Assembly: GCF_002250115.1 (NCBI RefSeq)
Contig: NZ_CP019985.1
Span: 4,092,001-4,156,000 of the forward strand
Origin: Shouchella clausii
GTDB taxonomy: Bacteria; Bacillota; Bacilli; Bacillales; Bacillaceae_D
Length of the DNA: 64,000 nt
Direction: 5' to 3'
This document shows, one piece after another, positions 42,228-42,760 of the stretch (the first letter of the stretch is position 1; every line of letters starts with the position of its first letter). Under the pieces are notes generated by a model. That model searched no databases and was not told where the DNA came from. It worked only from the letters and a program-made list of their open reading frames with translations. The position numbers and the translations under genes were made by a program.

Positions 42228-42665
42228 TTATTCCTGACGATGTTGATTACCGATCTCGATTCCCATGTTTTTCGCTGTTCCTGCGATGATTTTCATGGCA
42301 CTATCAATCTTTGTCGTATTTAAATCTGGAAGCTTTATTTTAGCGATTGCCCGTAGCTGGTCTGGTGTGATCGACCCGACAACCTCTTTTCCTGGATTTG
42401 CGGCCCCCTTTTCTACACCTGCATATTGTTTTAGCAAGAAAGCAGTAGGTGGTGTTTTGAGCTCTACAGAAAAGCTACGATCATCATAGATCGTAACGTT
42501 TGCAGGAATAACAACTCCCTGTTGATTTTTTGTCATCTCGTTGTATTGATTGCAAAAGCTGAGAATGTTTATCCCCATTGGAGCAAGATCTTTCTCAACT
42601 TTTGCTCCGTTGGTTTTTCCTGCTTGCAAATGAATGGTCATGATTCGTTTTATTGATTTTTCCAT
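42228..42665 (-). CDS. Ribosomal protein L11 paralogue
   Basis: 145 residues, like L11 throughout: GINILSFCNQYNEMTKNQQG, VIPANVTIYDDRSFSVELKTPP, and the C-terminal rRNA-binding part KLPDLNTTKIDSAMKIIAGTAKNMGI. It is not the ordinary rplK: the site is far from rplA/rplJ/rplL, and the N-terminal proline-rich segment (PAPPVGPALG in L11) is replaced by GAKVEKDLAP. Those prolines line the thiopeptide pocket with 23S rRNA. Could replace L11 on some ribosomes, conferring thiopeptide tolerance or altering RelA activation; both are inference. Ribosome site AAGGGTG lies seven bases before ATG but within a hairpin. Confidence 0.85.
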   Translation of the reverse strand: MEKSIKRIMTIHLQAGKTNGAKVEKDLAPMGINILSFCNQYNEMTKNQQGVVIPANVTIYDDRSFSVELKTPPTAFLLKQYAGVEKGAANPGKEVVGSITPDQLRAIAKIKLPDLNTTKIDSAMKIIAGTAKNMGIEIGNQHRQE

Positions 42666-42667
42666 TG

Positions 42668-42702
42668 TTATTCACCCTTTTCGTTTTTCTAAGGGTGAGT
42701 AA
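42668..42702 (-). promoter_or_regulatory. Hairpin sequestering the L11-paralogue ribosome site
   Basis: On the minus strand TTACTCACCCTT pairs with AAGGGTGAATAA (11 of 12 positions) around an 11-base loop. The 3' arm is the Shine-Dalgarno region of the L11 paralogue. A 13-codon frame (42713-42672, MSDIYSPLEKRKG) runs through the hairpin and ends within the 3' arm, but has no ribosome site. Confidence 0.6.
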
Positions 42703-42720
42703 ATGTCTGACATTACGTTA

Positions 42721-42760
42721 AGGTCAAGGCTGTTTTTAACTCTCCAAACAGCCTTGACCT
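42721..42760. repeat. 15-bp perfect inverted repeat in the L11-paralogue leader
   Basis: AGGTCAAGGCTGTTT (42721-42735) and its reverse complement (42746-42760) flank a 10-base spacer. No T-tract follows on either strand, so it is not an obvious terminator. A possible minus-strand -35 (TTGACC) lies in one arm, 18 bases before TTTACT. Confidence 0.7.

Follow-up and report, generated by a model that had tools for sequence, protein, structure and literature searches.

Shouchella clausii encodes, in addition to its canonical rplK, a second ribosomal protein L11, here called L11b, which is probably a TipA-controlled, thiopeptide-inducible and thiopeptide-insensitive spare uL11 that replaces the sensitive L11. 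The computed basis for this reading is a second intact L11 gene, a conserved altered loop, a largely unchanged C-terminal domain, TipAS regulators as neighbours and TipA-class promoters. L11b belongs to a subfamily of at least 12 loci in Shouchella, Paenibacillus and other Bacilli.

The window, the whole stretch of 64,000 nucleotides that we analysed, holds an intact L11b open reading frame with an ATG start. An earlier note on this DNA had given the gene as 42228–42760, which is too long, as L11b extends only to 42665 and positions 42666–42760 are its upstream region. The gene and its parts are:

42228–42665, minus strand: L11b gene, second ribosomal protein L11, 145 amino acids (open reading frame, TIGR01632, PF00298 at 97.6 bits, alignment)
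42573–42620, minus strand: altered drug-contact loop, residues 16–31, GKTNGAKVEKDLAPMG against canonical GKANPAPPVGPALGQAG (alignment, codon count)
42673–42679, minus strand: predicted ribosome-binding site AAGGGTG of L11b (sequence)

A profile search matched residues 3–138 of the protein to TIGR01632 (L11_bact) at 167.2 bits, against a cut-off of 141.85, and PF00298 matched two genes of the one-contig genome (G000, 4.52 Mb), the window copy and a canonical rplK at C1:1202577 that carries PAPPVGPALGQAG. The earlier note had proposed a second L11 without the proline-rich segment in a genome with a normal rplK, and both parts are borne out: the PP pair is gone from one of the two genes, and the other has PAPPVGPALG. 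Where its own rplK reads GKANPAPPVGPALGQAGVN, the window L11b aligns as GKTNGA-KVEKDLAPMGIN, with one residue deleted, P22, P23 and P26 (canonical numbering) absent, and its sole new proline at the position of canonical Q30; the alignment gives no shifted register that restores the loop, so the prolines are truly lost. L11b shares with canonical uL11 the full-length TIGR01632 match, most of the conserved C-terminal columns and, according to an AlphaFold model (mean pLDDT 84.3, pTM 0.59) with matches in the PDB, the predicted L11 fold, in which residues 20–30 are modelled as one helix. It differs in the altered loop, in being only 40% identical to its own rplK and in adjoining no ribosomal gene, an isolation that the earlier note had described correctly; the flanking genes resemble NUDIX, amylase and lipoate ligase genes (open reading frame translations read by eye).

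Across the subfamily, NPAKVGKDLAPTG stands in place of canonical NPAPPVGPALGQAG. This signature is near-identical in the 10 intact members, whose loop reads NPAKVGKDLAP(T/A)G except in the window (NGAKVEKDLAPMG) and in G457 (NPATVGKDLGPTG). The loop GAKVEKDLAP that had been quoted for the window copy is indeed present there, but it is a derived form of the subfamily's NPAKVGKDLAPTG. For comparison we used 126 canonical rows picked with a motif that includes PP and LG, so that conservation of the PP and LG columns among them is by construction. Where 95% or more of these rows agree, the majority residue of L11b equals the canonical one at 21 N-terminal columns, departs from it at 5 and is unchanged at all 13 C-terminal columns; the window copy departs from it at 9 of the 26 in the N-terminal domain and retains 12 of the 13 near-invariant ones in the C-terminal domain (E110 becomes K), in agreement with the earlier claim that the rRNA-binding domain is kept. 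The table of L11b changes required a change in at least 8 of 9 L11b rows, and two C-terminal positions conserved at 93–94%, S89 and A118, are A and T in 9 of 9. T in place of P26, the change carried by TclQ of thiocillin clusters (see below), occurs in 41 of the 126 canonical rows, and the missing PP pair of L11b is therefore the less usual alteration of the two. The rows with T include Erysipelotrichaceae, Mollicutes, uncultured Bacilli, Dehalococcoidia and Patescibacteria (for example, L087, L099, L104 and L119), and natural thiopeptide tolerance may be conceivable there. In a tree of 75 rows (9 L11b, 2 TclQ and 64 canonical rows out of the 126; G011, whose protein is identical to that of G010, Paenibacillus J5C2022 and G006 were left out), the L11b proteins form a single clade (support 100/100) that is separate from the rplK genes of Bacilli.

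Intact members are the window copy, those of Shouchella G010 and G011, Paenibacillus MSJ-34 (L085) and DMB20 (L086), and the Bacilli G688, G459, G533, G641 and G457. The other 2 of the 12 loci are broken: the gene of Paenibacillus J5C2022 has two frameshifts by our own reading of the sequence, and that of the sister species Shouchella G006 lacks its 3′ part (G006:C4:297260–297382, L053), a clean loss between flanks that are 94–96% identical. Among 41 genomes of its own family, L11b is whole in 3 and a remnant in 1. Taking the best E value of each genome with a match, we found L11b in 6 of 398 genomes sampled from the class (7e-59 or better, the rest 5.9e-46 or weaker) and, of 397 sampled from the order, in its own genome only (7e-81, the rest 4.5e-39 or weaker). 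The 42 genomes of the order of G688 gave the same 4 members and no further L11b, and 1 of 3 genomes in the family of G459 has the gene. Genome contigs were scanned with two peptide patterns and the best 80 of 124 relatives were kept, so that members were missed.

The stretch around L11b is chromosomal and collinear in Shouchella G000, G010, G011 and G006, and an 18-kb part of it is 91.9% identical between the window and G010; for this reason we rejected a phage or plasmid origin of the window copy. L11 matches in phage (tblastn) came from 19 records, all below 60% identity, a scan of viral contigs gave no relative, and the best 60 of 78 plasmid records were led by TclQ clusters; the plasmid records opened held two such clusters and one canonical rplK operon. 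The record MW495066.1 (L050, Microcystis phage MaAM05) holds secE–nusG–rplK–rplA and a selenocysteine peroxiredoxin and is probably bacterial DNA. In the other 9 genomes of the genus the flanks of L11b match weakly or not at all, which leaves only G006, with its partial deletion, informative on the empty site.

At 5 of the 12 loci a MerR-TipAS gene is adjacent to and codirectional with L11b. The assignment comes from Pfam in G688, G459, G457 and G533, and from a TipAS match of 39.7 bits together with the translation in G641; in G533 and G641 the TipAS match is weak, at about 40 bits. Translations read by eye revealed no adjoining TipAS gene at the four Shouchella and three Paenibacillus loci. 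TipAS matches number 1–4 in each of 18 genomes searched, and all 13 genomes searched in the genus have TipAS genes (in the window genome at C1:229954 and C1:1532375), so their presence alone is not special, whereas adjacency and promoter are. The Shouchella TipAS-MerR gene at C1:229954 has in its own promoter the same box as L11b, and its product is likely to be the regulator of the window L11b. A predicted Zn-protease gene of the DUF2268 type also follows a TipA-type box, ahead of a second TipAS-MerR gene (L227:148–1881, G000:C1 about 1531022); G006, G010 and G011 carry this box at the corresponding position, and it may mark a further TipA-type module. In both f81 genomes, G533 and G641, the gene immediately upstream of L11b, and codirectional with it, encodes a WYL-type regulator (L206:8854–9825 and L207:10210–11217), assigned by Pfam on the G533 protein, to which that of G641 is near-identical.

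Regulators next to L11b share the MerR plus PF07739 architecture of TipA of Streptomyces lividans (TipAL/TipAS), Mta and SkgA, and L11b shares their operator type, for which the published probes begin TTGCACCTCACGTCACGTGAGG, TTGACCCTAACGTTGCGTGA and TTGACCCTCACGCCACGTCA (PMC7762955). That report describes how TipA binds thiopeptides through its TipAS domain and then binds its own promoter more tightly, with thiostrepton binding preceding the tighter promoter binding, and it presents the class as minimal autoregulated systems (PMC7762955); at the L11b loci, by comparison, such a box also stands in front of the gene for a ribosomal protein that the drug itself targets. Because the class, as described there, also takes in Mta, SkgA and the albicidin-binding AlbA (PMC7762955), the inducer of L11b is not fixed. 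Upstream of the window gene we annotated:

42698–42727, minus strand: putative TipA-class (MerR-type) promoter (sequence, matrix, family box)
42727–42722, minus strand: −35 element TTGACC of this putative promoter
42703–42698, minus strand: −10-like element TTTACT, at a spacer of 18 bp (19 bp in G010)
Within 42698–42727, minus strand: dyad region AACGTAATGT of the putative promoter
42721–42760, no strand assigned: inverted repeat AGGTCAAGGCTGTTT ... AAACAGCCTTGACCT with 15-bp arms, overlapping the −35 element (sequence)

All 11 L11b genes that were scored have a MerR-type promoter 60–76 nt before the start (for example, TTGACTCTAACGTTACGTGATGCTCTATACT), although these loci are not all independent, as G010/G011 and G533/G641 are near pairs. 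With a matrix built from the three published operators alone (tipA, mta and skgA probes of PMC7762955), the 11 upstream regions score 14.0–22.6, compared to 11.1 for the best of 139 canonical rplK upstreams. Eight of the 11 beat all 5,500 shuffles, and the scores of G533, G641 and G457 were reached by 9, 2 and 9 of 5,500, respectively. A 20-nt family box, read off the same L11b loci whereas the matrix is independent of them, occurs with at most two mismatches in 9 of 11 L11b upstreams compared to 0 of 136 canonical upstreams (loci added in between account for the 139 of the matrix) and 3 of 11,000 shuffles; with 4 mismatches in G533 and 3 in G641, the other two fall in a range also reached by 4 of the 136 canonical upstreams. 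The window promoter scores 18.2 and has one mismatch to the family box. The subfamily combines a TTGACC-type −35, a TCACGTNACGTGA-like dyad and a 19-bp spacer, and the window has this combination only in part, its spacer being 18 bp.

Genome-wide, a 27-nt pattern with up to three mismatches gave 9 sites in G000, compared to 5 in the reversed control, and 9 compared to 6 in G010, which, as in most genomes, is hardly above background, so that only sites with 0–1 mismatches stand out. G010 and G011 have two zero-mismatch sites each, the promoters of L11b and tipA; in G000 the only one is the tipA promoter, and the window L11b site has two mismatches. The inverted repeat at 42721–42760 is perfect in the window and imperfect in G010. 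We also considered an RNA switch in the leader, where a predicted hairpin (TCACCCTT...AAGGGTGA, 42672–42698) covers the ribosome-binding site, with a folding energy of −10.7 kcal/mol and z −3.4 in the window (z −4.0 in G010, −0.8 in G641); a transcript that begins about 7 nt past the −10 would contain hardly any of the left arm, and we therefore kept the hairpin out of the model.

YcaO is needed for the azoles of thiopeptides. No YcaO gene was found in the searched genomes G000, G010, G011, G006, G533 and G641, and on this ground the four Shouchella genomes with L11b or its remnant presumably make no thiopeptide, which makes self-protection an unlikely role for L11b there. The earlier note's view that no producer cluster is present holds for these four genomes, but not for the subfamily as a whole: G457 has two YcaO genes, G459 one and G688 one partial match, and one of the two in G457 and that of G459 sit in thiopeptide-type clusters:

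L289:8633–14858 (G457): thiopeptide-type YcaO/LanB cluster, TbtD/PbtD-like protein present
L288:8901–15574 (G459): thiopeptide-type YcaO/LanB cluster

In both, thiopep_ocin is above its cut-off, the pyridine-synthase model gives 123.8 bits (G457) and 19 bits (G459), both below its cut-off of 325, and a search of the two clusters for a precursor peptide identified none. Both clusters are far from L11b or on another contig; given their presence, L11b may be self-protection in some hosts.

The nearest known system is TclQ/TclT, the L11-type proteins of thiocillin and micrococcin clusters (Bacillus cereus ATCC 14579, Macrococcus pBac115, staphylococcal plasmids), which two reports presume to replace the native L11 in ribosomes, calling the immunity role ‘presumed’ or ‘likely’ (PMC12724294, PMC10704990). 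TclQ resembles L11b in being encoded in addition to a normal rplK and in having an altered N-terminal segment where the drug makes contact, so the earlier note's comparison with thiocillin producers was right in kind, but in TclQ the PP pair is intact and T replaces P26, the change with which PMC12724294 credits it. The two TclQ proteins that we read, which are not those of B. cereus, keep PAPPVG in a loop PAPPVGT.LGPAG, whereas L11b is shorter there by one residue and carries K22, K25 and D26; TclQ lies inside a biosynthetic cluster, and L11b alone or with a TipAS regulator, under a TipA-class promoter. As the window L11b has neither that loop nor a location in a thiopeptide cluster, we did not class it as a plain TclQ member.

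The resemblance raises the question of whether L11b began as TclQ-like self-immunity of a producer and outlived the biosynthetic genes of a lost thiopeptide cluster, which we consider unlikely. Among the plasmid-borne matches (best 60 of 78 records), the TclQ proteins come nearest to the window copy, at 52% and 48% identity against 40% to its own rplK, but some chromosomal L11s, for example of Patescibacteria, are as close or closer, at up to 58% (among the best 80 of 124 relatives), so that identity to TclQ is no special sign. The free tree parts TclQ from L11b at weak forks, and a tree with both in a joint clade is not rejected (p-AU 0.568) and surpasses the free one by 6.9 log units, which is compatible with such an origin, as are the thiopeptide-type clusters of G457 and G459, the gene loss in G006 and the frameshifts in Paenibacillus J5C2022. 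Against it, the TclQ proteins retain the PP pair, translations read by eye over about 5 kb on either side of L11b show no biosynthetic gene, and loop and promoter are kept in G010, G011, G533 and G641, all of which are without YcaO. The N-terminal domain of L11 matters for the stringent factor, and L11 for SigB activation. An altered stringent-response or stress subunit, conditionally expressed and with a loop that modulates Rel/RelA activation or SigB signalling, would agree with these roles and with most of the altered conserved residues lying in the N-terminal domain; this alternative of the earlier note found no specific support here and is very improbable, as the changes centre on the prolines that contact thiopeptides, and TipAS sensors and TipA-class promoters co-occurring with L11b point to antibiotics rather than to the stringent response.

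Rather doubtful, too, is that the window copy, as opposed to the subfamily, is a decaying non-functional duplicate, even though it shows signs of drift. Its dN/dS against G010, by simple counting and with small numbers, is 0.34, the highest of 10 regional genes compared (the others range from 0.03 to 0.26), and its first 40 codons have 7 non-synonymous and 2 synonymous changes (dN/dS 0.93). T18, G20, E24 and M30 are peculiar to it among intact members, and since G010 and G006 agree at these four loop positions, the window form is derived. The operator has one changed dyad base and a −10-like TTTACT at 18 bp, where G010 has TATACT at 19 bp, and the sister G006 has lost the operator dyad as well as the 3′ part of the gene. 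On the other side, the reading frame, start and ribosome-binding site are intact, the C-terminal columns are kept at 12 of 13, and the whole-gene dN/dS is below 1. MerR-type promoters depend on a long spacer, so the 18-bp window promoter may instead act without a regulator. The window L11b may thus be either expressed without inducer or decaying, as in G006.

Returning to an inducible spare uL11 as the preferred reading, a TipA-class MerR regulator, encoded next to L11b or acting in trans as in Shouchella, would bind a thiopeptide and then activate the 19-bp-spacer promoter of L11b. Newly made L11b would replace canonical L11 in the GTPase-associated centre, and ribosomes assembled with it would stay active in the presence of the drug, because the prolines on which its thiazoles stack are gone. 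Thiopeptides sit in the cleft between the uL11 N-terminal domain and H43/H44 of 23S rRNA, with thiazoles stacked on prolines, and changes of the N-terminal uL11 prolines confer resistance, according to PMC5960728; against this, a review reports work on mutants in which thiostrepton still bound despite the changes in L11 (PMC3917276). The self-standing thiopeptide resistance factor that the earlier note had suggested is thereby strengthened by the subfamily, the TipAS neighbours and the TipA-class promoters, although resistance is something that we infer and the window copy is perhaps drifting.

L11-type immunity has been described for thiopeptide producers, as with TclQ, and here we describe an L11 subfamily outside such clusters with a more drastic loop change. 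New are the adjacency of L11b and TipAS genes at 5 of 12 loci and the TipA-class promoters at all 11 scored; among the records listed, largely outside subscription journals, our literature search found neither an L11 paralogue under TipA control nor the L11b loop. We lean towards a stand-alone inducible module in Bacilli that make no thiopeptide, consisting of a TipA-class sensor and a target-remodelling L11 paralogue, which would be spread over several families with repeated loss and which the 18-bp spacer of the window may have freed from its regulator. If this is true, TipA-class regulators would gain a target-replacement resistance gene, bacteria would be shown to counter an antibiotic by swapping a core protein of the ribosome, and AKVGKDLAP together with a TipA box would be a signature for finding thiopeptide-resistant or thiopeptide-exposed bacteria.
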